Positions 16,181 through 55,275 are shown, numbered from the stretch's first letter. The stretch: DNA of 64,000 bases from Chlorobium sp. (GCA_005843825.1 SZXX01000043.1:62001-126000), one strand, 5' to 3'. Numbers and translations: made by a program. The notes: generated by a model from the sequence alone, not told the origin.

Positions 16181-16878
16181 GTGGTATGAGGTAAAGATTG
16201 CAGGACTGTTCTGACCACCTCGGATGCACTCATATCAGGATTGATATCCAGTTTGAGCAATGCAGTGTAATCATCAATGGTATCCAGATCAAGCTTCAGT
16301 TCCGGATGGGCAAGCGTAGTGTCAAGAGGATCACAGGTGCCGATACGAAACCGATCAGGATTTGCCCATACATAGTTAAATATATGTTCCCGTTGTGCGG
16401 CCAGTGTCACGTTTTCATTCAGCTTTTCCAACAACTCCATGGAGACTATCTCCGCACCAAGTCCATCAGGATAACTATTGCCGCGCGGAATGTGATTGTA
16501 TGCATAATCATAGCTTCCACTTGCGTAAAAGTCAACAAGACGGTCGATCTCCGAACCGCAGACAAGCGGATTATCGGCACAGATACGAATGACCGTTTCA
16601 GCACCTTCCGAACGGGCGGCTTCAGTCATACGAGCAAGAACATCTGTTTCGCTCCCTCTGAATACTCTGGCACCAATACGCAAAAGGTGATCATAAAGGC
16701 GCTGATCTGAAGAAGTGTCAGGAACGGCAACAACCACACCATTAATCTCATCAGCCATACAGACTCTCCGCCAAACCCACTCAACCACAGGGAGGCCACG
16801 AAGCGGAAGCATCATTTTATCGGGCAGTCGGGATGAACCCATGCGGGCTTGTATAAGAGCGATAACCGGTCTTTTCAT
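16177..16878 (-). CDS. SpsF-like cytidylyltransferase-family protein
   Basis: This 233-residue protein has the nucleotidyltransferase signature ALIQARMGSSRLPDKMM at the N-terminus and the metal-binding CADNPLV. This is typical of the SpsF/CMP-Kdo-synthetase-like family found beside NeuB genes. It probably activates a keto-sugar acid with CTP, although SpsF proteins are often annotated only as glycosyltransferase-like. It is coupled by ATGA overlaps to the NeuA~PseG fusion upstream and to NeuB downstream. Confidence 0.85.
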   Translation of the reverse strand: MKRPVIALIQARMGSSRLPDKMMLPLRGLPVVEWVWRRVCMADEINGVVVAVPDTSSDQRLYDHLLRIGARVFRGSETDVLARMTEAARSEGAETVIRICADNPLVCGSEIDRLVDFYASGSYDYAYNHIPRGNSYPDGLGAEIVSMELLEKLNENVTLAAQREHIFNYVWANPDRFRIGTCDPLDTTLAHPELKLDLDTIDDYTALLKLDINPDMSASEVVRTVLQSLPHTT

Positions 16879-18563: not shown

Positions 18564-19676
18564 TCACATGCGAAGAAAGAGTTCCCTGACCTTCCATCGT
18601 GTCAGAATATCTTTAAAATGCTCTCCAAGTGCGTTGGTAAGCGGTTTTTCATGAATAATCGTTGCTGCATAGAGGCGTTCGTATTGATCATCCGTCAAAT
18701 TCCGGCATACACCTTCAGGAATGCTCACACCCTGTCGTTCCGCCATCCGGTAAAACTCGCTGTAACCTTCAGGATAAAACTCTTCCATTGCCCGCATGGT
18801 AATACAGTTGGCAACGCCATGGTGAAGCCCAAGCACAACACTCAGTGCGGCTGAAAACGGGTGAAGAACTCCGACATAACTTGTCGCTATGGCACACCCG
18901 CCAAGGTAGGAGGCAACCATCAGTTTTGCACGATTCTCATCGGACATCATATCGTCCCCCAAAAAAACATCCCTGCAAAGTTGCATGGTCTGGGAGGAAT
19001 AGGCATCGCCTATGGCATTCCGATATGATCCGTTGAGTGACTCCATACAGTGAATGAATGCATCCATACCTGTAAAAAAATACTGATCGCGCGGAACAGT
19101 ACGGGTCAAATCCGGATCAAGGATGATCTGGTCAAAAACGGTAAAATCACTATTCATTCCGAGCTTCAATCCACTGGCGGTATTGGTCATCACGCATGTG
19201 CGTGTTGATTCAGCTCCGGTACCCGAGAGTGTAGGTACCGCCACCTTGAAAATTCCGGGAAGTCGAACGAGATCCCAGCCCTGGTAATCCTCGGCATCAC
19301 CTCCGTTTGAAAGCAGGTTTGATACCGCCTTTGCAACATCCATTGTAATCCCTCCTCCTATGCCAACAATAGCACAGGGCAGTTCAGCAGAATCTGCAAC
19401 AACCCTGTCCCGCATGAAATTCATAAAGGATGTGGTGGGCTCACCAGTGGTATCCACATAAATAATCTGATGGCCTGAGGTGACGGCATTGAAGCCTTCA
19501 GAAAGATTGTGGTTGCGGAAAAAATGATCGATAAAAAAAATAGCCGTTCGGGACGTATTGTGACAATGTCCGTCAAGAATAGCTGACAAATCGGCGATCG
19601 CTCCTGCGCCAAAAAGATAATGCACTACATTTCGAGCATTACGTATTCCTGTTGAAAGCGTTGGTAAAGTAGTCAT
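18564..19676 (-). CDS. kdnB: KdnB-like iron/zinc-containing alcohol dehydrogenase (Kdo 8-oxidase type)
   Basis: This 370-residue protein is a group III metal-dependent alcohol dehydrogenase. It has the NAD-binding GIGGGITMDVAKA (105-117), TLSGTGAE (149-156) and likely metal ligands Asp205, His209, His272 and His286. Overall wording (VGIGGG, YQGWDL, GMNSDFTVFDQII) closely resembles KdnB of Shewanella. KdnB oxidises C8 of Kdo before KdnA transaminates it to 8-amino-Kdo. No KdnA-like aminotransferase is adjacent; the only DegT aminotransferase of the window is 20 kb away. The substrate could therefore be Kdo or a related keto acid. A broken copy lies at 6806-7680. Confidence 0.8.
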   Translation of the reverse strand: MTTLPTLSTGIRNARNVVHYLFGAGAIADLSAILDGHCHNTSRTAIFFIDHFFRNHNLSEGFNAVTSGHQIIYVDTTGEPTTSFMNFMRDRVVADSAELPCAIVGIGGGITMDVAKAVSNLLSNGGDAEDYQGWDLVRLPGIFKVAVPTLSGTGAESTRTCVMTNTASGLKLGMNSDFTVFDQIILDPDLTRTVPRDQYFFTGMDAFIHCMESLNGSYRNAIGDAYSSQTMQLCRDVFLGDDMMSDENRAKLMVASYLGGCAIATSYVGVLHPFSAALSVVLGLHHGVANCITMRAMEEFYPEGYSEFYRMAERQGVSIPEGVCRNLTDDQYERLYAATIIHEKPLTNALGEHFKDILTRWKVRELFLRM

Positions 19677-32229: not shown

Positions 32230-34203
32230 TTATTTAATCATTTTCTTAAACAGGTCATCGAATGAAGTTGAAATATATTTAGAGCCTATACTTGTTAAAT
32301 GCCCGCAATTATCTATATACAGCATTTTGTTCATTATCATTACAATAGCTCTTCCTTTTTTATCAAATAATTTAGATTCAGGATGAATAATAGTTACATT
32401 TGAATTCGCACTTATCTTGTCAAAGATAAGCTGTATATCTTTGTTTTTTATATTATATTCTTCTATAGTTGGTGATATTTTTTCAAAGTTTGGTGCTTTA
32501 TTAAGCATATTTGCAATAAAAAGAATACTATTTGGCTTTGCTTTTAGTGTCGGAACATCGCTAACAAGTATAACCTTCTTACCCATTTTTAATAATGCGT
32601 TAACTGATCTCCTTAACCCTGCTTCCAATAAGACGTGTTGTGGCTGATTTCCGCTATATTCGCTATTAACATCTACCATTTTGGTTTCTGCGCTCCAAAA
32701 TCCTGCGATTATTATTGTCTCTATTTCTGGGTGAATTTTTATAAATTCAATAACACTTTTATTATAATCCGCTTCATTGAATACGTAGTCTCTATCTACA
32801 ACATTAATACCCAATAATGGTAGAACCGCATGTCCATGCGCTATATTGAAACCAGATATATTATATTTTGTTGCTAAATCTGATATACAATCGACTAAAT
32901 TTCCTGCATGTGAGTCCCCCCATAGTGCAAACTTTAGTTTACCACTAGTTGGACCTATTAAATCAGGGCCATTACCTTTAGGTAATTCGTCTAAATTTTT
33001 TTCATTTTTTTCAAAATTCTTCCATAATGGGTCTGTTGCTGCATTTGTGATAATTCCATTCCAAGAAGGCGAACGATCTGGGAACCCCTTTTTGGTATGA
33101 ATCGTTACACCAATAGTTACTAATATTAACGTTATAATTCCTGAAAGCACAAAGAGTTTTTTTCTTTCAGGAATAACTGGATGCTTTTTTCGGAATGGAT
33201 ACTCTATATATTTCAAAGAAATTGCTGAGATAATAAATGTAACTGCAATAATTAAGATAATTTCAATACCTGTTAACTCTCTTAATATTAGATACTTAGC
33301 AATCACAATGAGCGGCCAGTGCCAAAGATATAGCGAATATGATATAAGGCCGATATAAACAATAGGTTTAAGACTTAAAAACTTATTTACTATAACTTCT
33401 TTGCCCCCTCCACCGCTGTATATAATCAAACAAGCCCCAAGTACAGGCAATAATGCATTAGGACCCGGGAATAGAGTTAAAGGACTATATCTTATTATAC
33501 TATATACTATTAAGCTTATGCCTATTATTGAGCCGATATTTCGGTTGGTGTTTGATTTAAGTTGAGGCGTTTCATCAAGGGCTAAAACAGAACCAAAAAG
33601 CAACTCCCATGCCCGTGTTGGCATAAGATAAAAAGTTGCCACCGGATAATTATAAACACCATAGATACTTGCAAGGAAACTAACTATACATATACCAAAC
33701 AAGAAGGAAAGATATTTTTTATTTAAAAATCGACTTATTGCAACAAGTAGTAAAGGGAATATTATATAAAACTGCTCTTCGACTGCGAGTGACCAAGTAT
33801 GAAGCAAAGGCCGCTCCATCAGCCCTAAGTCAAAGTATCCTGCTCTACGCCAAAATAATATATTCGATACAAAAAGGGATGTTGCTGTTAAAGTATTTCC
33901 TAAATCTTTAAACGATAATGGGTCTAAAATGATAGTACCAATTATAAGTACAAATATTATAACCGAGAAAAGTGGCGGAAAGATTCTTCTAATCCTACGT
34001 TCATAAAACCGTGCGACAGAGAAGTGTCCGTTTTTTATTTCCGTTAAGATAATTGATGTTATCAGAAAACCGGAAATAACAAAAAAGATATCAACACCTA
34101 CAAAACCCCCAGAAAATCCTTTAACATCGGCATGAAAAAATATAACGGCTAAAACAGCAACTGCTCTCAAGCCATCAACATCTGCTCTATATTTTAATTG
34201 CAT
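32230..34203 (-). CDS. OafA-like acyltransferase 3 with C-terminal SGNH domain
   Basis: This 657-residue protein has an N-terminal acyltransferase-3 membrane domain of about ten helices. It starts YRADVDGLRAVAVL and includes an HTWSLAVEEQFY segment near 135-146. A C-terminal periplasmic SGNH-hydrolase domain follows from about residue 420, with GDSHAGN near 429-435. Such two-part enzymes move an acetyl group across the membrane and O-acetylate surface polysaccharide. The gene is AT-rich and flanked by gaps on both sides, so it may be a separately acquired decoration gene. Confidence 0.92.
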   Translation of the reverse strand: MQLKYRADVDGLRAVAVLAVIFFHADVKGFSGGFVGVDIFFVISGFLITSIILTEIKNGHFSVARFYERRIRRIFPPLFSVIIFVLIIGTIILDPLSFKDLGNTLTATSLFVSNILFWRRAGYFDLGLMERPLLHTWSLAVEEQFYIIFPLLLVAISRFLNKKYLSFLFGICIVSFLASIYGVYNYPVATFYLMPTRAWELLFGSVLALDETPQLKSNTNRNIGSIIGISLIVYSIIRYSPLTLFPGPNALLPVLGACLIIYSGGGGKEVIVNKFLSLKPIVYIGLISYSLYLWHWPLIVIAKYLILRELTGIEIILIIAVTFIISAISLKYIEYPFRKKHPVIPERKKLFVLSGIITLILVTIGVTIHTKKGFPDRSPSWNGIITNAATDPLWKNFEKNEKNLDELPKGNGPDLIGPTSGKLKFALWGDSHAGNLVDCISDLATKYNISGFNIAHGHAVLPLLGINVVDRDYVFNEADYNKSVIEFIKIHPEIETIIIAGFWSAETKMVDVNSEYSGNQPQHVLLEAGLRRSVNALLKMGKKVILVSDVPTLKAKPNSILFIANMLNKAPNFEKISPTIEEYNIKNKDIQLIFDKISANSNVTIIHPESKLFDKKGRAIVMIMNKMLYIDNCGHLTSIGSKYISTSFDDLFKKMIK

Positions 34204-34443: not shown

Positions 34444-36027
34444 TTAATCGGTATTGATAAGTTTATTTGCAACTGATTCTAATTTTTTACGGTCAACTTT
34501 TCCGCTTGCAGTTAATGGGAGGTCACTGATATATATCAAGCGTTTAGGGAAAAAGATTCGATCAAGGTATTTAACGCTATCTGTTCTTATGTGTACTTCT
34601 TCCTCCTTACTTAACATTGAGGTGATGAATGCGACACACCCGGTTACAACGTCATTGGCATCTCGTAACGCAACTACTACGGCATTTGATGTTAGAGGAT
34701 ATCGATGGAGAACAGCTTCAATCTCACCAATCTCAATTCGACGGCCAGCTAGTTTAATTTGGCTGTCTTTACGACCTATGCATTCAAGATTACCGTCTTC
34801 GTTGTAAAACCCAAGATCACCAGACCGATACCACTTGCCGCCTGTCTTATCCCAATCGAACGAGACAAATGTGTTTGCTGTTTTTTCTGGATCGTTTAAA
34901 TAACCAATGGTTATTTGTGGCCCTTTATATACGATCTCGCCTGTCCCACCCGGAGCGACTTTTTGGCCATTTTCATCTATTAATGCAATTTGATGATTAA
35001 TAAATGGGCGACCAATGGGTATTATTGAGTTTCTAAAATTTCGGTTTTCTTCGGTTAAATCATATTTATGACGGCAAATGTAGATAGTTGCTTCTGTCGG
35101 GCCATATAAATTTTCGATTGTACTATTTGGCGCTGCTTTTCTCCATATATCGGCTAGATATTTAGGGAATTGCTCTCCACAAAACATGCTATGAGTTAAT
35201 TCTGGAAAAGCACCGGGTGAAAGATGACCCATTTTATACAAAAAGCTTGCTATTGACGGTACTGAATTCCAAAATGTGATTTTCTCCCTGACAAGATATT
35301 CGGAAGGCAACATCAGCTCATCTTCAAGTAATACACATAAGGTTCCTCCGTTAGCCCAAGTATAAAACATATCAGATACTGATGGGTCGAAGCTAAAGTC
35401 AAATGTCTGCGAGGCTCTAAAACCTGGATCCAAGTCATAAATATGCTCCATGCTCTGAAGGAACGCTAAAAGATTTGCATTTGTTACCTGCACACCCTTT
35501 GGCACTCCCGTAGAGCCCGAAGTAAACAATATGTATGCTAAACCTTCCAGTTCTGAAGGAACAGGATGCCCCAATGGTGGTGTGGACTGCAACACGCATT
35601 CATCAATCCATCTTTTGCCTACAGAAGAAGCGCCTTCAGGAAGAATGACTGCTTGCATGGACGGTATACCAGAACTGGAGATAACCGGTTCCAGCAGCTC
35701 TAGACTCTTTTTATCGCCAACTAAATATCTGACGTTGGCAGCTCGAAGCATTGCTACCAGCTTCTGGTGATTATATTTTGGATTTATGGGCACATAATTG
35801 CATCCGGCAAAAAGAATGCCGAGTATACCAAAGTATGAAGAAGGGGTTCGTTGCCCTACAATGCCTATTGTTTCGCGTTCGGCTCCACATTCGTTCAAGG
35901 CTCCAGCAATTGAGAGGGCTTTTGCGGATAACTCTGCATAGGTAATTAACCTGCCGTTATAGCTAATAGCAGCAAGATGACCATAAGCGATCATTCTTTG
36001 AAATAATAGTTTGGCGACTGATGACAT
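34444..36027 (-). CDS. Adenylate-forming acyl/aminoacyl ligase (DltA/NRPS A-domain-like)
   Basis: This 527-residue protein belongs to the ANL superfamily. The ATP loop TSGSTGVPKG is at residues 169-178, and NLYGPTEATIY, YRSGDLGFY and GRKDSQIKLAGRRIE follow in the expected order. The C-terminal catalytic Lys510 is in ASGKVDRKK. The length and motifs are closer to DltA and amino-acid-activating domains than to acyl-CoA synthetases. Its start overlaps the stop of the GNAT~ACP gene (TAATG). It is therefore very likely to activate an acid and load it onto that carrier domain. The acid is not predictable by eye. Confidence 0.9.
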   Translation of the reverse strand: MSSVAKLLFQRMIAYGHLAAISYNGRLITYAELSAKALSIAGALNECGAERETIGIVGQRTPSSYFGILGILFAGCNYVPINPKYNHQKLVAMLRAANVRYLVGDKKSLELLEPVISSSGIPSMQAVILPEGASSVGKRWIDECVLQSTPPLGHPVPSELEGLAYILFTSGSTGVPKGVQVTNANLLAFLQSMEHIYDLDPGFRASQTFDFSFDPSVSDMFYTWANGGTLCVLLEDELMLPSEYLVREKITFWNSVPSIASFLYKMGHLSPGAFPELTHSMFCGEQFPKYLADIWRKAAPNSTIENLYGPTEATIYICRHKYDLTEENRNFRNSIIPIGRPFINHQIALIDENGQKVAPGGTGEIVYKGPQITIGYLNDPEKTANTFVSFDWDKTGGKWYRSGDLGFYNEDGNLECIGRKDSQIKLAGRRIEIGEIEAVLHRYPLTSNAVVVALRDANDVVTGCVAFITSMLSKEEEVHIRTDSVKYLDRIFFPKRLIYISDLPLTASGKVDRKKLESVANKLINTD

Positions 36028-36905
36028 TACTTTGAAACTGCCCGTTCTTCCAGAATACCAAAAAGTGCCTTGACTGAATTTGCACGCATCATTTCTGATG
36101 GAGATAGAGATATTCCCGTCTTCTGTGAAACAGCAACCATTATTGACATATGATTCAACGAATCCCAGCTGAAAGCATTACACATATTCGTCTCATCGCT
36201 TATATCCTCTTCGGTCAAGATAGAGCTAACAATGTCGATTACGTCATTAATCGCATAATGTCTTTGTGTTGATTTGCCACATTCTTTACTCTCATAATAC
36301 TCATAACGAAGCATTGAATATTGCCAAGCATCAATAAAGGTGCCCTGTTTGCAATAAAACTGCCTCAGAATTCCTTCTTGTTTCATTCCTGAAGCAAGTA
36401 ACGATGCAATAGTTCGCTGGTTGGTAACCATAGTCATACCATAGAGCCTATTTAAATCTAAAACTTCAAAGACAAAATGCTTTAGTAACTCTTCTATTTG
36501 CAATATATACCCTAATCCCCATAACTCAGGATCGACACCATAGCCCCATTCAACGGATTGCCGGTCATAATTTAGGGACGTCAGTGCGGCAGTACCAATA
36601 AGATATCCATCTGTTTTTCTTCTTACAAACCAGTACTTGGCAGTTGTATATAATGGCCTACCAGCCATCCGTTGCTCTAATTTTTCTATGTATGATTTTG
36701 TTTTTTCAATGGTATTAAATGGATCAAACTCCAAGAACTCATAGAATCTAACGTCTTTTGAATAACGATGCATTTCTTCAAGACCAACCATAGAAAGTGG
36801 CTCAAAATATATATTTGAATGAATTTCTAAAGTATCATTGCTTGATCTAACACTTCCTGGGCATACGCCAGTAAACTTGGTAAAAAACTCTTCTTTATTC
36901 AACAT
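36027..36905 (-). CDS. Fusion of GNAT N-acyltransferase and acyl carrier protein
   Basis: This protein has 292 residues. Residues about 30-205 are a RimJ/RimL-like GNAT domain, with YWFVRRKTDGYLIGTAAL, VEWGYGVDPELWGLGY and LNRLYGMTMVTNQRTIASLL. Residues about 215-292 form a four-helix acyl-carrier domain with the phosphopantetheine site DSL; the serine is Ser249. Carrier and acyltransferase in one chain imply that the acyl group, loaded by the ligase encoded next, is handed directly to an amine. A likely acceptor is an amino sugar made by the aminotransferase of this module. A phosphopantetheinyl transferase encoded elsewhere would be needed. Confidence 0.85.
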   Translation of the reverse strand: MLNKEEFFTKFTGVCPGSVRSSNDTLEIHSNIYFEPLSMVGLEEMHRYSKDVRFYEFLEFDPFNTIEKTKSYIEKLEQRMAGRPLYTTAKYWFVRRKTDGYLIGTAALTSLNYDRQSVEWGYGVDPELWGLGYILQIEELLKHFVFEVLDLNRLYGMTMVTNQRTIASLLASGMKQEGILRQFYCKQGTFIDAWQYSMLRYEYYESKECGKSTQRHYAINDVIDIVSSILTEEDISDETNMCNAFSWDSLNHMSIMVAVSQKTGISLSPSEMMRANSVKALFGILEERAVSK

Positions 36906-36985: not shown

Positions 36986-37825
36986 CTACCATACGCAGCG
37001 ACCACCATCCATAACGATATTTTGGCCATTCATGTAAGTTGATGCATCTGAACAAAGAAAATGAATGGCTGAACGATATTCATCATGATTAGCCATCCGC
37101 CCCGTAGGAATAAGAGAAGTTAGGCGCTGGACAAACTCTTCTGATTGGCCAGTATAGACACCACCTGGCGAAAGTGCGTTACAACGAACCCCTTTATCTG
37201 CCCAGTATGTTGCCAGATAGCGTGTTAAACCTATCAAGCCTGCTTTTATTACAGAGTAGGTTACTGGCTTTACTGGTTGCTGGTCATCTGAAAGGCCGTC
37301 TTTGCGGTAGAGCCGTTGGTCAGGTGAAAAAACTGAGAGATCTGATGCAATGTTTAAAATAACGCCGCCTTTACCATCATGAGCCATCGCTGTGCCAAAC
37401 TCTTTGCTACAAAGGAAAGCCCCGGTCAGTCCGACTGCGATTTGTAAATCCCATTGCTCAAGCGGGAAGTTTTCGAGGCGTGAGGTTTCGAGAATGCCCT
37501 GATCACCATTTACTTTCGGGTCAATTGCAGCATTGTTAACAAGAATATCAACACGTAACCCTTTTTCAGCAAGACTTTCAGCAACAACTCTTATTGACTC
37601 AGGCTTAGTGACATCCATCACCAGCGTTTGGATACGAGCAGAATCGGCTGTTTTTGATAAAGTTTCACGCGCGATACCGAGAGTTACCTCGCTTATATCA
37701 GTCAAAACAACAGTTGCACCACTTTCAAGCAGAGCTGCTGCGTGCTCCACACCAAGCAGGCCTGCTGCCCCGGTTATTAGCGCTATTTTTCCGGTTAAAT
37801 CAAATTTTTGGAATGCTTTACCCAA
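36986..37825 (-). CDS. Short-chain dehydrogenase/reductase
   Basis: This 279-residue protein is a classical SDR. It has ITGAAGLLGVEHA at the N-terminus, DILVNNAAIDP, and the catalytic Tyr-x3-Lys in TYSVIKAGL. The start seems to be TTG at 37825, with a short AGG six bases upstream and no better ATG. It follows the Gfo/Idh gene by seven bases. It probably oxidises or reduces a hydroxyl of a sugar or of the acid that becomes the acyl group. Confidence 0.87.
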   Translation of the reverse strand: MGKAFQKFDLTGKIALITGAAGLLGVEHAAALLESGATVVLTDISEVTLGIARETLSKTADSARIQTLVMDVTKPESIRVVAESLAEKGLRVDILVNNAAIDPKVNGDQGILETSRLENFPLEQWDLQIAVGLTGAFLCSKEFGTAMAHDGKGGVILNIASDLSVFSPDQRLYRKDGLSDDQQPVKPVTYSVIKAGLIGLTRYLATYWADKGVRCNALSPGGVYTGQSEEFVQRLTSLIPTGRMANHDEYRSAIHFLCSDASTYMNGQNIVMDGGRCVW

Positions 37826-37831
37826 TTGTAC

Positions 37832-38890
37832 CTATGCCTTTTTATCTTTGTTTACATATTCAAGAACGACTGCCTCTGCCTGTTTGCTAAGCATTGAGCG
37901 CCGAGCTGCATCAACAATCACCAATGAAACCTCTGCTGCTCTAAGAGATTCATTTGTATCGGACTCCTTCCATGATTTTAGGAAATAGTTCGCCTGCGCC
38001 ATAAACATGGAATCATTTGAATAACCAGGTTCGACAAAGATTTCTGGCGTATTACCAAAAGGAGTTACCGTTAGTTGATTGCCTTCTTCATTCCAAACTA
38101 TATTACCCTCTGACCCTGCAATATGAAAACTTCGTGATGTTTTTTTGTGCATAAAGCATAAGGTAATATGAACTGAAAAGTTTTGGTAAAGCAGTGTCAT
38201 CTGCACTGTATCTTCGACTCCAAGTTTTTCCTTTCCACGATTCCCCCCTACACAAAAGACCGCATCAGGCACTCCAAAAAACCAGTATGCAAGATCAAGT
38301 TCGTGAATTTCTGTCAGAAGTACTCCGCCGCCAAAATCCTGGCGAACAGCGTAAAGGTTTCGCCAATCCTCATATTGATGCCAAGATGGAACATTCGAAT
38401 ACACTGTAAATGAAGCAGCTATGGGGCAACCAATCACGCCGGATTTTACCATTTGACAAGCACGAGCTATCAGAGGGTGAAAACGGCGCTGAAATGAAAT
38501 TAGAAACGGTAACTTTTTAATCCTCATCCCGTGTGCAAACTCTGCAAAACCATCAAGATTTTCTGCCCAAGGCTTTTCCACCAACACGCCACTTCCGGCT
38601 TCCATTGCCATAAACATTGGTTGCCTATGAAAAGCTGTAGGGGTTGATATCACCGTCAAATCCGGGGATGATTCAAATGCTGACTTTAAACTTTCGAAAG
38701 TTTTTAGCCCATAAGCACTCTCAACAGTATTGTGTTCATCTACGGAAAAATCTGGGCGAAGCAAAGGAGTCGCACTACTACTACGGTAAGCAGAAAAGAG
38801 TGCACTCTCAGGAAGTAGTTGACGAAATATACGAAGATGACGTTGCCCAGCACCCCCCAATCCAATAAACAAAACGTTAGAAAAGCTCAC
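37832..38890 (-). CDS. Gfo/Idh/MocA-family sugar oxidoreductase
   Basis: This 352-residue protein (from GTG 38890) has the NAD-binding start VLFIGLGGAGQRHLRIF, then ISTPTAFH and the catalytic-loop EKPWAEN. The C-terminal half is the typical beta-sheet domain. The GTG overlaps the stop of the preceding isomerase gene as GTGA. An ATG at 38902 is an alternative, but the only GAGG sits one base before it. Family members oxidise a ring hydroxyl of a nucleotide sugar, which would prepare a keto group for the nearby DegT aminotransferase. Confidence 0.86.
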   Translation of the reverse strand: MSFSNVLFIGLGGAGQRHLRIFRQLLPESALFSAYRSSSATPLLRPDFSVDEHNTVESAYGLKTFESLKSAFESSPDLTVISTPTAFHRQPMFMAMEAGSGVLVEKPWAENLDGFAEFAHGMRIKKLPFLISFQRRFHPLIARACQMVKSGVIGCPIAASFTVYSNVPSWHQYEDWRNLYAVRQDFGGGVLLTEIHELDLAYWFFGVPDAVFCVGGNRGKEKLGVEDTVQMTLLYQNFSVHITLCFMHKKTSRSFHIAGSEGNIVWNEEGNQLTVTPFGNTPEIFVEPGYSNDSMFMAQANYFLKSWKESDTNESLRAAEVSLVIVDAARRSMLSKQAEAVVLEYVNKDKKA

Positions 38891-39714
38891 TTGGCAAAAC
38901 ATTCCTCATAGAAAAATTTCACAAGCTCAAGATTATAAGCCGCAGTTCGCAATGGATTACTGCCTCTTTGAGTTTCAAAAGTATATGGACCTTGATATTT
39001 AATTTCTGCAAGAGCTTCAAAAACCTTAAGAAAATTCACGAGTCCTGTTCCAATAATGACATTTTCATTAAATGTGTTCTTGTCCTTAATGTGAACATGA
39101 CTGATTCTGCTGCCAAGCATGCATATATCGCCAGGTAAATCGTGACCAAAAGCTACTCTGTTACCTGTATCGTAGACAACGCTTACCGCAGGATGGTTAA
39201 TCCTTTCTAAAACAGTAATCAGTTCGGCTCCATTCAAAACAGTCTCCAGGCAAACAGTAATACCTGATTGTTCAGCTTTATCTGCAATTATGCGTAATGG
39301 ATCAACATACTCCTCAACATTCTTTAGAGTAAGCTCGGATTGTTCAAAGAGAGGCAAAATATATTTTTGGCATCCAAGAAGTGCGCCTCGCTCAATCAGT
39401 TTCAAGTTCTGAGATAATACATCATCACTCTTCGGTAAAGCATGATCGACAATATAATCGTTGCAAAAAGCATGCAAAGAGAGTCCGTTACGCTTGACCA
39501 AAGACTTTATGCTATTAACTCCAGCATCACTCCATAGAGGATTTGCCGGATTGTGGTTTCGCTCAGCGATTAACTCTATGTAGTCAATACCAAGTGCTGA
39601 AGCAATAAAGAATTCTGATTCCCAGTAGTCTTGAGGAAACCATTGTAATTGACCAGGTGGTGACTGAATGAGCCGCCCCTGAACAATACCGAAACGAAGA
39701 GGATGTATTGCCAT
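38887..39714 (-). CDS. Sugar phosphate isomerase/epimerase-like TIM-barrel protein
   Basis: This 275-residue protein belongs to the AP-endonuclease-2/xylose-isomerase-like family. It begins with FGIVQGRLIQSP and has metal-ligand regions in YIELIAERN, CLETVLNG, YDTGN and HVHIKDK. It probably isomerises or epimerises a sugar intermediate of the module. It sits between the aminotransferase and the oxidoreductase. The C-terminal half of the NeuB fusion at 42317-44209 belongs to the same superfamily. Confidence 0.83.
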   Translation of the reverse strand: MAIHPLRFGIVQGRLIQSPPGQLQWFPQDYWESEFFIASALGIDYIELIAERNHNPANPLWSDAGVNSIKSLVKRNGLSLHAFCNDYIVDHALPKSDDVLSQNLKLIERGALLGCQKYILPLFEQSELTLKNVEEYVDPLRIIADKAEQSGITVCLETVLNGAELITVLERINHPAVSVVYDTGNRVAFGHDLPGDICMLGSRISHVHIKDKNTFNENVIIGTGLVNFLKVFEALAEIKYQGPYTFETQRGSNPLRTAAYNLELVKFFYEECFAK

Positions 39715-39723
39715 GTGTTTTTT

Positions 39724-40926
39724 TCAACGACCGATTTCATCAATTAACCTGGATAATAACTCAGCCTTTATTTTTGCCATACCCAGATCTCGATAGTTTG
39801 TCTTAAACTGCATGAGCCGCAGTTGTAATGCCTCTGCTACAGGACAGAGGCCCGCCTCCATCTTAAGCGAACCAAACATCTTGTTGCGTAGAGAGATTTC
39901 CAGATAAGGGGTAACAACACAACCATAAAAACCATCCCCTCCCATTGCCATGTATCGATTATAAAATTCCTTCCATTTCACTCCACGCTCAGACTCACCA
40001 CGATAATCGACTGCGAAAGTATAATAACTATGCTCAACACCCTCCATAACTGTTTGCGGTATCATCCAACGACAGCCCTCAGTTGCTTCAAGAAACATCC
40101 TCGCACATGCTTGACGGCGGGCAACAATATGGTCAACACGTTCAAGTTGGGCCAGCCCAACGGCAGCGGAGATAGCATTCATACGGTAATTTAAGCCGAT
40201 AGTATCAAAACGTTCATACCCGGGATCTTGAACTGTTGATAATGCCAAGTGGGTGCGGCCAGCAGTTGCCGTCATGTGCTTGTATCCGATACCCGCAAAC
40301 TTACGGGCTCGAGTTGCTAATTCAGGATCCGATGTCACAATCATTCCACCCTCTGAACCTGTGGTCAAATGCTTTTTATTTTCAAAGCTATAAACCCCAA
40401 TATGCGTATTGGTCCCTGATATTAAACCTTTATATCTGCCCATCATGGTCTGCGCAGAATCGTCTATAACTACAAGATTATGCTTTTGAGCAAGTTCCAT
40501 TATTGGGTCCATATCAACTGGTAGTCCCTGCCATGAAACCGTAATGATTGCTTTTGTCTGAGGAGTAATCTTGCGGGCTATGTCTACTGGGTCAATATGT
40601 TGAGTCTCGGCTACTATATCAGCAAAAACCGGAATTCCGCCCAAGTGAATAGTGGCATAAGCATCCATTACAACAGTCATTGCAGGCTGAATAACCTCAT
40701 CTCCTGAGCCTACCCCAGCGGCATATAGCGCAGCATGCAAACCTGACGTACCAGAGTTCACCGCTATAGCGTACTTTGACCCTATTTTCGCCGCAAACGC
40801 CTCTTCAAATCGCTGAACCCATTGAAATGCCTTATTTTCGAGATTTTCTGTATCTAATGCCCGTAAAACATATTCTGCTTCATTACCATTGTACTTTCCG
40901 AACGGGTGTTTAACATTTTCAGTCAT
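39724..40926 (-). CDS. DegT/DnrJ/EryC1-type PLP-dependent sugar aminotransferase
   Basis: This 400-residue protein has AVNSGTSGLHAAL for substrate and PLP binding, VIDDSAQT with the PLP-contacting Asp, and the Schiff-base lysine Lys185 in SFENKKHLTTG. Enzymes of this family convert a keto sugar to an amino sugar. It is the only sugar aminotransferase seen in the window. It probably supplies the amine that the GNAT~ACP protein acylates. It is the nearest equivalent to SpsC in the spore-coat sps operon, given the SpsF- and NeuB-like neighbours. Confidence 0.9.
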   Translation of the reverse strand: MTENVKHPFGKYNGNEAEYVLRALDTENLENKAFQWVQRFEEAFAAKIGSKYAIAVNSGTSGLHAALYAAGVGSGDEVIQPAMTVVMDAYATIHLGGIPVFADIVAETQHIDPVDIARKITPQTKAIITVSWQGLPVDMDPIMELAQKHNLVVIDDSAQTMMGRYKGLISGTNTHIGVYSFENKKHLTTGSEGGMIVTSDPELATRARKFAGIGYKHMTATAGRTHLALSTVQDPGYERFDTIGLNYRMNAISAAVGLAQLERVDHIVARRQACARMFLEATEGCRWMIPQTVMEGVEHSYYTFAVDYRGESERGVKWKEFYNRYMAMGGDGFYGCVVTPYLEISLRNKMFGSLKMEAGLCPVAEALQLRLMQFKTNYRDLGMAKIKAELLSRLIDEIGR

Positions 40927-40942: not shown

Positions 40943-41686
40943 TTAACAATTTTTAGCTAATTGAGCTTTCTTCCACTCCTGATTTCTGAACCAATTAATT
41001 TTGAAAAGATCAGGGTTACTCAAGAACAACCGATTGACTTCTGCTCTTGATGCCTGCCCCCCAATAATTCTTAACACAGATACTAAAAGCCAATAATCCT
41101 CCTCATAATCAAGCGTAAGCCTCGCCATAGGTGGCAAAGTAGCTTCTTCGGGTAAAACTACCTTTTTAAGATTTGTAATTTTTTCCAGGTAATACCACAT
41201 CATTTCAGTATCTGATTCAAGAGGTAGTGAGGAGGAGACACGCCTAACAATTTCAGCAGTCAAAGAGTAACCAACACTCGCGCCGCCTGCTGATGAAGAT
41301 TCAGTCGGGCAAACCATATCATAATTTCCATCCTTCAGGAGTTGCATGCTCCGGGTTATCTCTTCCCCATCAAAAAAAGGATCATCTGCGTCAACAGTAT
41401 GAAAATGCTCGATATCAAAAAAATTAGCACAATCCGACCAACGCTTTAACTTATTGACTAAAGAACCCCGAAAACATTTTACATCCTCATTGGAAGCAAT
41501 CTGTTCAAGGATATCATCAGATTTATCGATACTTGTGCATAATATTGGCTCTATGCCTAATGACTGTGCTCTTCGAATAATGTGTTCTATTACATTTCCC
41601 TCACCAAATGGAAGCAAGCATTTCGCAGGTAAACGAGATGAAGAAGTTCTAACGGTTACAAAGCCAACTATACTATTTTTTCCCAT
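40943..41686 (-). CDS. SpsF-like cytidylyltransferase-family protein, second copy
   Basis: This 247-residue protein has the N-terminal signature FVTVRTSSSRLPAKCLL and an acidic metal site in VDADDPFFDG. Both are variants of the SpsF/CMP-Kdo-synthetase pattern. It is divergent from the copy at 16177-16878, which reads ALIQARMGSSRLPDK. It lies 61 bases after GmhA and near the NeuB fusion, so it may activate the keto acid that the fusion makes. The nucleotide is not certain. Confidence 0.8.
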   Translation of the reverse strand: MGKNSIVGFVTVRTSSSRLPAKCLLPFGEGNVIEHIIRRAQSLGIEPILCTSIDKSDDILEQIASNEDVKCFRGSLVNKLKRWSDCANFFDIEHFHTVDADDPFFDGEEITRSMQLLKDGNYDMVCPTESSSAGGASVGYSLTAEIVRRVSSSLPLESDTEMMWYYLEKITNLKKVVLPEEATLPPMARLTLDYEEDYWLLVSVLRIIGGQASRAEVNRLFLSNPDLFKINWFRNQEWKKAQLAKNC

Positions 41687-41747: not shown

Positions 41748-42320
41748 TTAACCATGAAATTTAGCTTCAACTAACTCACACAAGATGTGGCCAAGTAAAA
41801 TATGACACTCCTGAATCCGAGGAGTATCGCTTGACGGCACATGAAGACACTCGCAAAAAGCTGCAATCACTCCCCCTCTTTGCCCGGTCAATACAACAGT
41901 ACGAATACCTGATTCAACTGCTGCTTCGACTGCCCTGACAATATTCAGACTGTTTCCACTGGTAGAAATCCCTATAAAAACATCGTGTGGTTGAGCAATA
42001 CCGCGCAACTCACGACTAAACACTTGATCATAGCCATAGTCATTACCAATGGCACTGATAGCTGAGCTGTTGGTACCCAATGCCAGTGACGGCAAAGGAG
42101 CGCGGTCAAACAAGAATCGGGAGGTGAATTCTGCTGAAAGGTGTTGAGCATCGGCAAAACTCCCGCCATTACCGGCAAAAATGATCTTGCCACCTGAAAG
42201 TAATGCCGTCAAGCAATCAGTAGCCAACATTTCAAGCTGAATAAGCAGAGCCTCATCGGCGAGCATTAGCTCTTTGACCTTGATTGACTCGCTAATTCTT
42301 GCTTTAATCAAAGCATTCAC
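41748..42320 (-). CDS. gmhA: SIS-domain phosphoheptose isomerase
   Basis: This 190-residue protein, starting at GTG 42320, has FAGNGGSFADAQHLSAEFTSRF with the metal-binding His and Glu of GmhA. A C-terminal HILLGHILCELVE helix completes the family pattern. The reaction is sedoheptulose 7-phosphate to D-glycero-D-manno-heptose 7-phosphate. GGAGGG lies six bases upstream of the GTG, and the start overlaps the NeuB fusion stop as GTGA. A longer form from ATG 42353 would overlap by 37 bases and is unlikely. With HddA- and HddC-like neighbours it suggests GDP-heptose synthesis. Confidence 0.9.
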   Translation of the reverse strand: MNALIKARISESIKVKELMLADEALLIQLEMLATDCLTALLSGGKIIFAGNGGSFADAQHLSAEFTSRFLFDRAPLPSLALGTNSSAISAIGNDYGYDQVFSRELRGIAQPHDVFIGISTSGNSLNIVRAVEAAVESGIRTVVLTGQRGGVIAAFCECLHVPSSDTPRIQECHILLGHILCELVEAKFHG

Positions 42321-44209
42321 AGCATACCCTCCAGCTTTTCGAGCGCTGCCCAAAAGCCTTCCCCTCCGTTTTTATGCCCTTGCCAGATTTCAGGAATGAA
42401 GGTTGCTTGCGGGCATCCTGTATCAAGAATTTTGCCTAACCGTTCAAAATCAAGCTCCCCTTCACCTATCTGCAAACCTTCACCATTAACTCCCCGAGCG
42501 TCTCCTAAATGAAGATGCGCTGTAAAGGGCGCTATGCGTGTTGAAACATCATAAAAGTCAAGGCCCAAGTGATTGCACGCCAAACAACTGTGAGAGATGT
42601 CAAAACACATACGCAAATTGAGCTTCAAACACCACTCAATAATCTCTTCAGGTTTGACAAAAAGGTTCTGGTAGCGCTGACCACCAAAATGCCAGGGGAA
42701 CGGAGCCATAGTCTGAGGAATAAGTTCAACCCCTTCAAGATCAAGCTCGCTTAGACTTTGAGCAAATCGATGGTAATAGGGTATAATCTGTTCAGAGGGA
42801 AGGAGCGCATCCATGGTAAAGCCGCCAATATTTGCCACTATCTGCGGTTTGGTCGTCGCTGGGAAATATGATTTAAGTGAGCGAGTGATATCAATGACGC
42901 GTTGAGTTTGCTCTAATGAGTACTTGCGATACTCCTCGTCCGGTGTGGCCAAATCCATCAGACGACTGCCTGCAAAGAGTTCTGGAGCATGCACTACAAA
43001 TCCGCAGGGATATGGTCCGGTTAAAAAATCTGCAAGGTTGAGATCCATATCCGAGTAGGAGAGATGGAACTCGAAGAAATCGGGAGTGACACGCGAATGG
43101 TACTCCTTGAAGTCATGGAAACGCACCGGGATCCCCCAAGGACGGCGAAACTGGTAAGGACGGGGGGTTACCTGCTTGTCGAGCAAATCAGAGGGGAAAA
43201 AGAAATCTTCCATTGCAAGATTACGCTGTAAGGTACGGCCGACCAGCTCTTCATAGCGCTGGGGAGAGAGCCCTTGACCTGGGCTGCGCACGATGATATG
43301 CTCTGACTGGATTACTGTGCCTATCGTTAAAGGCTTTGCAGCAACCAGACTTTTACCGAGATTTTCACGGTTGATCATCTCCCCCTGGCTCAGTTTGCGC
43401 ACTTCTCCTTCGCCAAGGGCCTGCTCGATTTCGCGAATACCTTCAATCAATCGTTTGAATTCAGCATATTCTAAACTCGCTGCATGGTCGGGCCCTTCCA
43501 TGTTGCGGTCCAAGGTAAAATGCCGTTCGATAACGCAGGCGCCAAGTGCCACAGCGGCTAGTGAAACGGCAATTCCTCGTTCGTGACCAGAGTACCCTAC
43601 CAAGGAATGCAGTTTACGTAATTGTGCCATCCATTTGAGTTCAATGTCTTGTAACGGGGCAGGATAGGTGCTGTTGCTGTGGAGCAAGACAAAAGATACC
43701 TTACGCTGATTAAGAAAATCTACCGTGATCTTAACTTCATCAGGGTAACTCATACCTGTCGAAAGAATCTGGGGTTTACCTGTACTCGCCAACACCTGTA
43801 AAAGGGGCAGATTGGTAAGGTCAGCAGATGCAACTTTGTAAGCGGGAACACCTATATTTTCAAGCACTTTGACACTTTCGCGATCCCATGGAGTACACAA
43901 ATAGAGAATACCCTTCTTTTTGCAGTAATCGGCAAGCCTGCGATGATCTTCAACTGAGAGTTCAAATCGACGCAGAAGGTCCAGAATGTATTCTGTGCCA
44001 AGATCGTCTCCGTCGTTGCGAAGGGTACGCTCACGGTATACCTCTTTAAGATGGCGCATCTGGAATTTGACGCAATCGACACCTATTTGAATGGATTGAT
44101 CAATAAGTTTTATTGCGCTATCAAAACTGCCATTATGATTATTGCCTATCTCAGCTATGACAAATGTTCGCTGTATACCGATATCGTAATTTCCAATCTT
44201 AAAACTCAT
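42317..44209 (-). CDS. Fusion of NeuB-family synthase and sugar isomerase-like TIM barrel
   Basis: This protein has 630 residues. Residues 1-345 are a complete NeuB-type synthase, with VIAEIGNNHNGS, DCVKFQMRHLKE, YKVASADLTNLP, IERHFTLDRNMEGPDHAAS and a C-terminal SAF domain with SLVAAKPLTIG. Residues about 350-630 are an AP-endonuclease-2-type barrel, with FDISHSCLACNHL and HLHLGDARG. It would make a keto-deoxy sugar acid and isomerise or epimerise the same or a linked substrate. It overlaps the CBS~kinase gene and GmhA. It is much longer than the free-standing synthase at 15110-16180. Confidence 0.88.
   Translation of the reverse strand: MSFKIGNYDIGIQRTFVIAEIGNNHNGSFDSAIKLIDQSIQIGVDCVKFQMRHLKEVYRERTLRNDGDDLGTEYILDLLRRFELSVEDHRRLADYCKKKGILYLCTPWDRESVKVLENIGVPAYKVASADLTNLPLLQVLASTGKPQILSTGMSYPDEVKITVDFLNQRKVSFVLLHSNSTYPAPLQDIELKWMAQLRKLHSLVGYSGHERGIAVSLAAVALGACVIERHFTLDRNMEGPDHAASLEYAEFKRLIEGIREIEQALGEGEVRKLSQGEMINRENLGKSLVAAKPLTIGTVIQSEHIIVRSPGQGLSPQRYEELVGRTLQRNLAMEDFFFPSDLLDKQVTPRPYQFRRPWGIPVRFHDFKEYHSRVTPDFFEFHLSYSDMDLNLADFLTGPYPCGFVVHAPELFAGSRLMDLATPDEEYRKYSLEQTQRVIDITRSLKSYFPATTKPQIVANIGGFTMDALLPSEQIIPYYHRFAQSLSELDLEGVELIPQTMAPFPWHFGGQRYQNLFVKPEEIIEWCLKLNLRMCFDISHSCLACNHLGLDFYDVSTRIAPFTAHLHLGDARGVNGEGLQIGEGELDFERLGKILDTGCPQATFIPEIWQGHKNGGEGFWAALEKLEGML
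42327..42332 (-). promoter_or_regulatory. Shine-Dalgarno site that fixes the GTG start of gmhA
   Basis: GGAGGG on the minus strand sits six bases before GTG 42320, within the last codons of the NeuB fusion gene. This is an optimal arrangement and supports the 190-residue GmhA. Confidence 0.75.
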
Positions 44210-45594
44210 ACACTCTCTATTTCTATATGATTATTGCACTCTCTGACCGTCCATGACTGCAAACCTTCTTGCTCAAAACGAAAAGGGCTGATCTTAAGCC
44301 CTGCATCTTCAAGATGAGCCATGACATTGTGTTTACGAAAAGATGGCACATAAAAAAGGAAAAAGCCTCCCCCCCCTGCACCTAAAAGCTTCCCACCCAA
44401 CGCTCCACATTTGCGTGCGTTATCGTAAATTTGATCGAGGTTAATAGTCGATATCATGCTACTAAACCGGCGTTTCAACTCCCATGATTCATGGAGGGAT
44501 TGGCCAAATTGAAGCAACTTGCCTCTGAGCAATTGGTTACGCATACGATACGAGAGCTCGACATTTGACTGAACATGCTGACGAACATTTAAGTGCTTCA
44601 TCTGCTCGCGTTGATCCTGGTGTATATCACCTGATTCGTGACTAATTCCTGTATCGCAAAGAATCAGACTCTCTTCGAGTTCAAGAAGAGTTTCCGGATG
44701 AATACGCAAGGGATGAACAATATTTTGATCCATCCGGAACTCCATGAAATTAAAGCCGCCAAACACTGTGGCATACTGATCCTGCCATCCGCCTGAAACG
44801 CCAAGATAGAGGCGCTCGGCCTGAAACGCCAACTCCGCCAGTTCGTGCAGATCCCATTTATCATGACGAAATTGGTTGAAACAACCAAGCATAGCAGCAG
44901 ATACAACTGCTGAACCGCCAAGTCCTGAATTCATTGGATAATCGGAATGGAGAAAGAGCTCAAAACCAAATTCCGGATCCACCAACTTGAGTATGGCTTG
45001 AATAAGCCCAAACGCGCCTTTCTGCGATAAAGCGTTTTGAAGATTTTCAGCATGGAGTGATGCACCTAAATCGCGAGAGTGTATAATAACCTTCTCATCA
45101 TCACGAATCCGCAATATGGCATGGCTATAAAGCGAGATTGTTGTATTAATGACCGCACCATTTTCACCGTTGAAATAATGCGTAAGGTCCGAACCACCAC
45201 CGCCAAAACTTATACGGACAGGGGAACGAGAACGAGAGTAAGTCTTTGCTTCGACTTGTAGGGGAAGATTATCTCGACTAACAATGCCTGTTAATTGCTG
45301 TGCAGCATTTAACAATGGAATTACCCGGATACTATGATCCAGTTTTTTGAGCAACGTTTCTCGCGAAGTGTTTTGGTTTGCCCATACAAAATTTGGATTT
45401 GCCAATTGCCCTATACAATCATCGAGTGAAGCCCCTGCAAGCAAACCACCTCTAATATCTCCATCAGTTGCAAGACCAACCACTGCACCAGTGGGACTGG
45501 TTGTCAAGATAAGACCGTGTTGATTGGCATCAATCTTTTCAAGTGCAGACCTTAATGAGGCCTTTTCGTCAATAATAAATAACTCTTTGTTCAC
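44206..45594 (-). CDS. hddA: Fusion of CBS-domain pair and GHMP kinase (HddA-like heptose kinase)
   Basis: This protein has 462 residues. Residues 1-115 contain two CBS motifs (VGLATDGDIRGGL and LTGIVSRDNLP). The remainder is a GHMP kinase with SPVRISFGGGGSD, the ATP loop GLGGSAVVSAA, and a C-terminal LLGAGGGGFFLF. The kinase part is closest to D-glycero-alpha-D-manno-heptose-7-phosphate kinase. CBS pairs sense adenine nucleotides, so the kinase may be allosterically controlled. The GTG start at 45594 overlaps the nucleotidyltransferase stop (GTGA). Confidence 0.85.
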   Translation of the reverse strand: MNKELFIIDEKASLRSALEKIDANQHGLILTTSPTGAVVGLATDGDIRGGLLAGASLDDCIGQLANPNFVWANQNTSRETLLKKLDHSIRVIPLLNAAQQLTGIVSRDNLPLQVEAKTYSRSRSPVRISFGGGGSDLTHYFNGENGAVINTTISLYSHAILRIRDDEKVIIHSRDLGASLHAENLQNALSQKGAFGLIQAILKLVDPEFGFELFLHSDYPMNSGLGGSAVVSAAMLGCFNQFRHDKWDLHELAELAFQAERLYLGVSGGWQDQYATVFGGFNFMEFRMDQNIVHPLRIHPETLLELEESLILCDTGISHESGDIHQDQREQMKHLNVRQHVQSNVELSYRMRNQLLRGKLLQFGQSLHESWELKRRFSSMISTINLDQIYDNARKCGALGGKLLGAGGGGFFLFYVPSFRKHNVMAHLEDAGLKISPFRFEQEGLQSWTVRECNNHIEIESV

Positions 45595-46298
45595 AGTTTA
45601 ACTTTTTTGCCTGACTCAATCCAGCGACAAAACCTGAAATAATCATCAGGAATACCTATATCAATAAAGTCTGTATTTATGGGCACAGCTGTTAAGATTC
45701 CATTATTAGCCAAAAATGGAAATAATATTTGTTCTAAAGAAAATGGTTTATTATTCAAGTCCTTAAATAATCCGGGATGCAGCAGGCACAGCCCTGCATT
45801 AATATAACCAGAAGCATTATAGCTCCTTTTTTCATGGAATACTTTCACTGTATTTTGGTCGTCTAGTTCTACACAACCATATCTACTGGCATTATCTACT
45901 TTTACTATCACCATTGCTGGTGAGGGCGCATCTAATAGTTGTTTGATTCCATTACCGAGCCACGTGTCTGCGTTTGTTAGTAAAAAATCACCAGAAAAAT
46001 GTAATTGCTTGATTGCATAAGCTACCGCACCTCCAGTCCCCATCGGCTCTGGCTCAACCAACCAGGCTATCTGACAATCTTTGAGAGTATCGTTTTGTTG
46101 ATTTTTCAGAAAATCAATGATTAAGTCAGACTGGTGATGCAATAAAAAAACAAAAGAATATATTCCTTGGCTTTTCCAATGTTCTATTTGCAGTTGAAGA
46201 AAAGGAATATTAGCGATGGGAGCGAGGGCTTTGGGTATATCCGCTACTACGGACTGAAGGCGAGTACCAAAACCTCCAGCTAAGACGACTAATTTCAT
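45591..46298 (-). CDS. hddC: Sugar-1-phosphate nucleotidyltransferase (HddC-like)
   Basis: This 235-residue protein has the signature LAGGFGTRLQSVVADIPKAL. The metal-site Asp is in LLTNADTWLGNG. The size and position next to the heptose kinase fit HddC, which makes GDP-heptose from heptose 1-phosphate, although the nucleotide cannot be told by eye. A GmhB-type phosphatase would still be required between HddA and HddC; none is obvious in the window apart from the HAD proteins at the left edge and in the fusion at 56545. Confidence 0.85.
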   Translation of the reverse strand: MKLVVLAGGFGTRLQSVVADIPKALAPIANIPFLQLQIEHWKSQGIYSFVFLLHHQSDLIIDFLKNQQNDTLKDCQIAWLVEPEPMGTGGAVAYAIKQLHFSGDFLLTNADTWLGNGIKQLLDAPSPAMVIVKVDNASRYGCVELDDQNTVKVFHEKRSYNASGYINAGLCLLHPGLFKDLNNKPFSLEQILFPFLANNGILTAVPINTDFIDIGIPDDYFRFCRWIESGKKVKL

Positions 46299-54632: not shown

Positions 54633-55275
54633 AATCGCCACAATAGCCAAAATGCTTGTATAACCAAACCCACTCATCTTCATCAAAAAACGACTCACAG
54701 GTGAGTGCCCAGCATTGTAAATTGAATAACTCCTGTTCGTTACGATAGCTTTCGAGCATTACGTAACCCTGCTTGCCAACCCGCTCTATTTCCTTTAGTG
54801 CAGATTCGAGTTCAAAGAACCGAAGGTTATGCAAGCAACCCAATGAGATAACAAGATCAAATTCCTGATCACTATATGGGTACTTATCCTGTGCATTGTG
54901 AATGATAAGAGCATCTTTTATTGCCTCTTTGGAATTGTCTATGCCATACCTCGATATATCAAATCCAGCAATTCTTAAGCCAGGAAGCAATAATTTCATT
55001 TCATAGAGAAGAAAGGCCTTTCCGCAACCTACATCAAGTACACTTGACGTATCTGTCAACCGGTATTGCTTAATCAGGGCATCTGCAACCGGTTTCCAGC
55101 GACCGGGCATATAGCTATAGCCACCGTACCCATACCTGCGATCTCCATCCCAATAATCCGAACCATACTCTTTAGCAACTTTCATGCAATGCACTTTATC
55201 GTCAACCATGCGAGCAAGGTAATCCCTCTTTGTTGCCTGATGAAGAGGGGTTACGAAATTTCGAAGTTGCCCCAT
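54610..55275 (-). CDS. SAM-dependent methyltransferase
   Basis: This 221-residue protein has VLDVGCGKAFLLYEM and ISLGCLHNLRFFE, typical of class I methyltransferases. A conserved YGYGGYSYMPGRW segment precedes the SAM site and may contact the substrate. The start overlaps the stop of the short transketolase subunit (TAATG), so the two are co-expressed. It could methylate the product of the transketolase step. Confidence 0.83.
   Translation of the reverse strand: MGQLRNFVTPLHQATKRDYLARMVDDKVHCMKVAKEYGSDYWDGDRRYGYGGYSYMPGRWKPVADALIKQYRLTDTSSVLDVGCGKAFLLYEMKLLLPGLRIAGFDISRYGIDNSKEAIKDALIIHNAQDKYPYSDQEFDLVISLGCLHNLRFFELESALKEIERVGKQGYVMLESYRNEQELFNLQCWALTCESFFDEDEWVWLYKHFGYCGDYEFIYFK

Follow-up and report, generated by a model that had tools for sequence, protein, structure and literature searches.

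Two adjoining genes of a surface-sugar gene cluster in the analysed DNA, a stretch of 64,000 nucleotides from Chlorobium sp. (the window; GCA_005843825.1 SZXX01000043.1:62001-126000), encode a stand-alone adenylating ligase and a GNAT domain that is fused to its own carrier domain (Table 1). With slightly better than even confidence, we interpret them as a two-gene module for carrier-linked N-aminoacylation within a sugar-acid pathway. More tentatively, and as a possibility that we would not yet favour, the fusion may stand for an undescribed class of sugar N-acyltransferase: a GNAT which works without free acyl-CoA and uses only its own tethered aminoacyl arm, placing an amino acid onto the amine of a new CMP-activated 3-deoxyulosonic acid, and which is encoded in a block of eight genes moving between phyla.

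Table 1. Genes of the ligase-fusion pair and of the run upstream of it, in window coordinates.
Feature	Coordinates	Strand	Evidence and remarks
Stand-alone ANL adenylating ligase, NRPS A-domain type	34444..36027	-	527 aa; Pfam, TIGR01733; presumed loader of the fused carrier
GNAT-carrier fusion	36027..36905	-	292 aa; Pfam, alignment of four orthologues, AlphaFold helices in the carrier part
SDR oxidoreductase, conserved in block	36986..37825	-	86% identical to the L024 and 72% to the L025 orthologue
Gfo/Idh/MocA oxidoreductase, conserved in block	37832..38902	-	Orthologues 83, 67 and 59% identical
Xylose-isomerase-like TIM barrel (epimerase/isomerase/dehydratase), conserved in block	38887..39714	-	Orthologues 87 and 63% identical
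DegT-family PLP aminotransferase, presumed source of the acceptor amine	39724..40926	-	PF01041, E 3e-75; orthologues 92, 83 and 64% identical
CMP-transferase (cytidylyltransferase, SpsF/NeuA type)	40943..41686	-	PF02348; 64% identical to L025, 63% to L026
SIS-domain isomerase, GmhA-like	41748..42353	-	PF13580; GmhA model 171 bits, below the 209-bit cut-off
NeuB-type PEP-condensing synthase with SAF, fused to a C-terminal TIM barrel	42317..44209	-	PF03102
CBS and GHMP (heptose-type) kinase	44206..45594	-	Probable precursor supply; in the window's run, outside the block shown as conserved
Nucleotidyltransferase	45591..46298	-	Probable precursor supply; in the window's run, outside the block shown as conserved

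The ligase and the fusion protein

The ligase matches AMP-binding (PF00501, E 1e-64) and AMP-binding_C, and its 344 bits against the NRPS adenylation-domain model TIGR01733 exceed the cut-off of 317.4, which places it among the ANL adenylating enzymes. All motifs of this family were located in the ORF: FTSGSTGVPKG (168-178), YGPTE (308-312), YRSGDLG (400-406), GRRIEIGEIE (428-437) and SGK with Lys510. The first-pass annotation had claimed this complete set, an overlap of the two genes, and a neighbour composed of a GNAT domain followed by a carrier domain with Ser249 in DSL. All of this was borne out; the overlap comprises a single base (TAATG).

The fusion protein starts with an N-terminal extension (residues 1-31), followed by the GNAT part (about 32-205), a short and variable linker (206-218) and the PP-binding carrier part (219-292). 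Acetyltransf_3 (PF13302) matches residues 42-175 with 47.4 bits against a cut-off of 25.4 (E 4e-12), and the GNAT models above their curated Pfam cut-offs together cover residues 42-192 approximately. The carrier part is recognised by PP-binding (PF00550) at residues 222-281 with 26.3 bits against a cut-off of 20.8 (E 9e-6). Ser249 lies within S-W-D-S-L, is invariant in all four orthologues (51-80% identity) and is the presumed site of pantetheinylation. An AlphaFold model based on the four-row alignment shows helices for the carrier part, mostly with pLDDT values of 70-80, and is poor for the GNAT part (mean pLDDT 47).

The host is presumably a green sulfur bacterium or a near relative of one, as its genome encodes chlorosome envelope proteins of family PF02043, which are absent from all 14 control genomes. 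Two phosphopantetheinyl transferases, one of AcpS size and one of Sfp size, are encoded in the host genome, together with exactly three PF00550 carriers, namely AcpP, a 74-aa carrier and the fused domain. The contexts of the other two carriers are of fab type and situated on other contigs, the AcpP gene being located among fabD, fabG and fabF, so that no carrier besides the fused domain is recognisable on the ligase's contig (PF00550, E <= 0.001). Two KASIII-like genes flank that of the 74-aa carrier (L051, contig C25), and hexapeptide-repeat and SDR genes adjoin them. This neighbourhood may represent a further small acyl pathway, which perhaps serves surface sugars.

Substrate of the ligase

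LgrA, IdnL7, VinM, AlmE and DltA are the closest solved relatives of the ligase. Over the A4-A5 pocket the best solved match is IdnL7 (6AKD), the second is 8K4R, which we take to be VinM, and the third is AlmE (4OXI), with DltA also among the best. The pocket was read column by column from alignments, using our own mapping of the GrsA positions, and consists of D214, P215, S218, N254, M281, C283, L307, I/V315, Y316 and K510. The first nine positions are D, L, H, L, F, C, L, I, A in AlmE, D, L, M, T, L, C, T, V, A in DltA and D, C, F, F, L, A, L, I, T in IdnL7. No match to the resulting code, D-P-S-N-M-C-L-I/V-Y-K, was obtained among the characterised enzymes compared, and Pro215, Ser218 and Asn254 are unusual.

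D214, the equivalent of the alpha-amine-binding D235 of GrsA, and C283, a cysteine of the AlmE/DltA type, are invariant in all four ligases, and the A10 lysine (Lys510) is present in each of the three complete sequences. In AlmE and DltA the alpha-amine is bound by D247 and D197, respectively, and the cysteine near the alpha carbon or methyl group is C316 in AlmE and C268/269 in DltA (PMC11253843). The substrates of these enzymes are glycine, L-alanine and L-serine for IdnL7, L-alanine, L-serine and glycine for VinM, glycine for AlmE and D-alanine for DltA (PMC11253843, PMC11284099). Since D214 and C283 are kept and the pocket resembles those of AlmE, DltA and IdnL7, a small alpha-amino acid appears to be the likeliest substrate, with glycine, alanine and serine as candidates, which narrows an earlier list of amino acid, hydroxy acid or short acyl group. 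The unusual residues P215, S218 and N254 keep us from naming the amino acid; given these residues, the substrate may also be polar or something other than an alpha-amino acid.

Donor site of the GNAT part

The pyrophosphate loop of the four fused proteins was compared with that of 20 RimJ/PseH-like relatives of the CoA type, a small sample drawn from the genome searches. The relatives carry WG(K/R)G..(T/S)EA, with Lys/Arg131 in 16, Thr/Ser135 in 14, Glu136 in 17 and Ala137 in 16 of them. In all four fused proteins the loop reads WG(L/Q/N)GYI(L/M)QI, with Leu/Gln/Asn, Leu/Met, Gln and Ile at positions 131, 135, 136 and 137, and the structural residues E119, G132, R153, N162, G173 and E177 are kept. 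Such changes in the CoA-phosphate loop are expected, without being proof, if binding of the ADP half of CoA has been lost and the donor is carrier-bound. Trp129 of the same loop might have indicated that CoA binding is lost, but this was rejected, as tryptophan is also found in 15 of the 20 ordinary relatives.

Recurrence and spread of the pair

A scan of 84,980 species genomes revealed three full-length homologues of the fusion with 51-80% identity, a count that is a lower bound because the short peptide patterns used detect close relatives only. They stem from metagenome-assembled genomes (MAGs) labelled Bacteroidetes (L024, 80% identical over the alignment) and Cyanobacteria UBA8530 (L026, 57%) and from a Bdellovibrionales MAG (L025, 51%). 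Whether the ligase is always adjacent in other genomes had been raised as a check on its dedication to the fusion. Its orthologue is the next gene downstream at all four loci, including the window, which supports this dedication; the ligases of L024, L026 and L025 are 88, 63 and 55% identical to that of the window, and the overlaps with the fusion gene amount to 1, 29 and 8 bases, respectively.

Upstream of the fusion, orthologues of the SDR, Gfo/Idh, TIM-barrel and DegT genes follow in the same order at all four loci, and NeuB-type and CMP-transferase genes are found further upstream in both relatives whose loci are long enough to show them (L025 and L026). Methyltransferase genes are placed differently: one is inserted between the SDR and fusion genes in L024, a similar one follows the ligase gene in L025, and another lies between the CMP-transferase and DegT genes in L026. 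In comparison with L024, the fusion and ligase genes show dN/dS ratios of 0.18 and 0.16, indicating purifying selection. As the pair recurs at four of four loci and is under purifying selection, chance is excluded as the origin of the two-domain ORF and its ligase neighbour.

Searches with the fusion or the four-row profile in samples of 394 genomes of the host phylum and of 291, 386 and 394 genomes of the phyla of L025, L026 and L024 (the two sets of 394 may overlap) gave no second example of the fusion beyond the genomes already known. A profile of the Gfo/Idh protein yielded one distant match (E 4e-43) in the 394 genomes of the host phylum, in a genome of another family. Because the block is rare within each phylum, yet 50-90% identical between loci of different phyla, its distribution would be most readily accounted for if the block had been transferred horizontally as a whole. 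Its presence in three further bacteria, most of them unrelated, suggests that the pathway is genuine, that it moves between genomes and that it serves an unusual surface sugar. The window and L024 should not be treated as fully independent loci, judging from 86% DNA identity over the block, and the L024 MAG may come from a related lineage. Their divergence is uneven: synonymous distance is 0.19 in the carrier segment (window 36027-36250) and about 1.0 in the GNAT segment. The gene is thus probably a mosaic that arose by recombination within the fusion gene, between related blocks.

In a search of plasmids and phages, and likewise in a scan of viral contigs, only matches to the GNAT part and no fusion were obtained. 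Free-standing relatives of the ligase on plasmids of Pseudochrobactrum and Solidesulfovibrio were rejected as the unfused ancestor, as they adjoin separate carriers and have no recognisable GNAT beside them. An unfused orthologue that would reveal the order of events was not found in the genome searches. As a separate observation, plasmids of Leisingera (L046, 7899-10754) and Phaeobacter (L047, 7932-10667) carry NRPS-like genes for about 900-950 aa within surface-polysaccharide clusters. In the L046 protein, an adenylation and a carrier domain precede a stretch of about 360 aa that has no Pfam match, which may represent a further fused design for acyl transfer.

Neighbouring genes and the acceptor

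The amine had been ascribed to a DegT aminotransferase encoded 3 kb upstream in the same run. The distance is 2.8 kb, and the presence of the gene at all four loci supports this link. The DegT protein is nearest to the PseC and LegC models, below their cut-offs. A Gfo/Idh oxidoreductase followed by a DegT aminotransferase converts a ring hydroxyl into an amine in WbpB/WbpE of Pseudomonas and in NtdC/NtdA of Bacillus.

A NeuB-type synthase and a CMP-transferase in one run, here conserved in L025 and L026, are a feature of nonulosonic-acid pathways. Against the NnaB and PseI equivalogs the synthase reaches 343 and 235 bits, below the respective cut-offs of 399.65 and 340, and is assigned to neither product. 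Its fusion to a xylose-isomerase-like TIM barrel is also encoded in L025 (2-1882, 67% identical), and L026 has a short NeuB protein without the barrel. In L026 the SIS gene is situated close upstream of NeuB, and the order SIS, HAD phosphatase (KdsC-like), NeuB and CMP-transferase would mirror the Kdo logic of KdsD, KdsC, KdsA and KdsB. On account of this Kdo-like order and of the DegT gene beside NeuB-type, CMP-transferase and SIS genes, the acceptor is likely an aminated 3-deoxyulosonic acid. The first-pass annotation had proposed a glycan sugar; the NeuB and CMP-transferase genes in the block refine it to a probable CMP-activated ulosonic acid of the NeuB type.

Proposed mechanism and alternative readings

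From these findings we infer the following course. One of the host phosphopantetheinyl transferases would convert the fused carrier to its holo form at Ser249. The ligase would adenylate a small alpha-amino acid (glycine or alanine most likely, serine possibly) and load it as a thioester on the fused carrier, its presumed partner in view of their invariable adjacency and of no other carrier nearby. The arm would then carry the aminoacyl group to a GNAT site, either in cis within one chain or on a partner chain, where it would be passed to the amine of the sugar. Judging from family chemistry and from WbpB/WbpE and NtdC/NtdA, this amine would be put on by the DegT enzyme at a ketone produced by the Gfo/Idh oxidoreductase, the SDR oxidoreductase or both. 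The sugar itself would probably be a 3-deoxyulosonic acid formed by the NeuB-type synthase and activated by the CMP-transferase, and the product an N-aminoacylated acidic sugar for a surface glycan.

Glycerate and hydroxybutyrate are known N-acyl groups of bacterial sugars, and the same carrier-linked mechanism could serve such a hydroxy acid or another small carboxylic acid. The breadth of the ligase family and the unusual polar residues Ser218 and Asn254 agree with this, as do N-hydroxybutyryl groups on Qui4N, Fuc3N and bacillosamine in surface polysaccharides (PMC3210612) and the Aeromonas pseudaminic-acid islands with an ACP, a 3-oxoacyl-ACP reductase and an AMP-dependent synthetase (PMC7874193). 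However, the amine-binding Asp214 is kept in all four ligases and the nearest pocket relatives all activate small amino acids, which makes a non-amino-acid substrate unlikely. It is improbable that the chemistry takes place on the tethered group, either by VinM-like amide formation through the ligase or by acylation of the bound amino acid by the GNAT (e.g. N-acetylation from acetyl-CoA), with transfer by another enzyme and N-acetylalanyl-type groups as the result. VinM, the second-best pocket match, does form amides on a carrier-bound beta-amino acid (PMC11284099), N-(N-acetylalanyl) sugars occur in marine bacterial polysaccharides (PMC3210612), and acetylation of amines is the classical GNAT activity; against this, the CoA loop of the GNAT is altered and the conserved block has no separate transferase that could move a finished acyl group to the sugar.

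Two further readings concern the partners of the pair. The DegT, TIM-barrel, Gfo/Idh and SDR enzymes might supply the fusion with an amine that has nothing to do with the NeuB product, such as an amino-cyclitol, for acylation. Among the best NCBIfam matches of the Gfo/Idh and TIM-barrel proteins are indeed IolG inositol dehydrogenase (69 bits) and IolE inosose dehydratase (38 bits), both far below their cut-offs, but NeuB and CMP-transferase genes precede the block at all three loci that reach that far, window included, and we regard this reading as quite improbable. The GNAT might also be an ordinary acetyl-CoA enzyme whose carrier serves another acyltransferase, for instance the OafA-type AT3-SGNH protein encoded at 32230-34203, the next gene downstream in the window. 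This gene is about 240 bp away from the pair, however, and is not beside it in L025 or L026, and the fusion itself and the changes in the GNAT loop suggest that the carrier serves the GNAT; we consider a foreign acyltransferase very improbable. The preferred reading is N-aminoacylation of the sugar amine by the fusion.

Comparison with known systems

From its sequence, the pair is predicted to work like AlmE-AlmF-AlmG and DltA-DltC-DltB, with a ligase, a carrier and a transferase, yet it belongs to neither. To our knowledge, AlmG is not a GNAT. In the lipid A glycylation of Vibrio cholerae, a carrier receives a small amino acid from an ANL ligase that shares this pocket class, and an acyltransferase passes the amino acid on to a surface glycolipid (PMC12930378, PMC11253843). 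There, however, carrier and transferase are separate proteins, the acceptor is an acyl chain of lipid A and the bond is an ester, whereas an amide is predicted for the window. Membership in AlmEFG was rejected, as the carrier is fused to the GNAT and the block is without a lipid-A acyltransferase gene. The resemblance to the DltA/DltC logic noted earlier holds for ligase and carrier: the D-alanylation of teichoic acids by DltA-DltC-DltB-DltD also shares the amine-binding Asp and the pocket Cys, but differs from the carrier fused to a GNAT and the predicted amide on a sugar amine. The ligase is not DltA itself (272 bits, cut-off 559.85), and no MBOAT or DltD-like gene was found among the neighbouring ORFs tested with Pfam.

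PseH/RimJ-type N-acetyltransferases belong to the same GNAT domain family and have the same role next to a DegT aminotransferase, but the fused carrier, the altered CoA loop and the dedicated ligase set the window's protein apart, and with 30.7 bits it stays below the PseH cut-off of TIGR03585 (93.1). IdnL7 and VinM, ligases for macrolactam starter units, are the closest solved stand-alone ligases over the A4-A5 pocket and use small L-amino acids. Unlike the ligase described here, they belong to polyketide pathways, VinM acts on a carrier-bound beta-amino acid, and Cys, Phe and Phe take the places of P215, S218 and N254.

For the tetronate of V. cholerae O1 perosamine, ACP and ligase genes have been proposed. 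Ligase and carrier genes in a sugar-acid cluster are likewise known from the group II pseudaminic-acid islands of Aeromonas (PMC7874193). In both cases the carrier is free-standing and the transferase has not been identified as a GNAT-carrier fusion. N-aminoacyl groups such as N-acetylalanyl occur on bacterial surface sugars, so N-alanyl-type products are known as well (PMC3210612). The novelty lies in the joining of carrier and GNAT in one protein, in the predicted bond, an amide and not an ester, and in the block that contains the pair. A limited open-access literature yielded no description of carrier-linked or GNAT-carrier systems in polysaccharide pathways, which is weak evidence of absence. 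The self-contained pair should be easy to express and test, and would help to find other aminoacyl-sugar pathways in genomes. If the GNAT truly depends on its tethered arm, it would show how a CoA enzyme is converted into a thiotemplate enzyme through fusion.

Other observations in the window

A second ulosonic-acid set is located at 15110-16878 on the minus strand, with NeuB and SAF (15110-16180) followed by a CMP-transferase (16177-16878). It adjoins genes for a DUF4910/DUF2172 protein (13819-15153), an Acetyltransf_6 GNAT (12828-13808) and an iron-containing alcohol dehydrogenase (18564-19676). In a polysaccharide region at 55275-56548 (minus strand), a transketolase is encoded by two adjacent genes for the N-terminal and pyrimidine domains, with several methyltransferase genes beside them.
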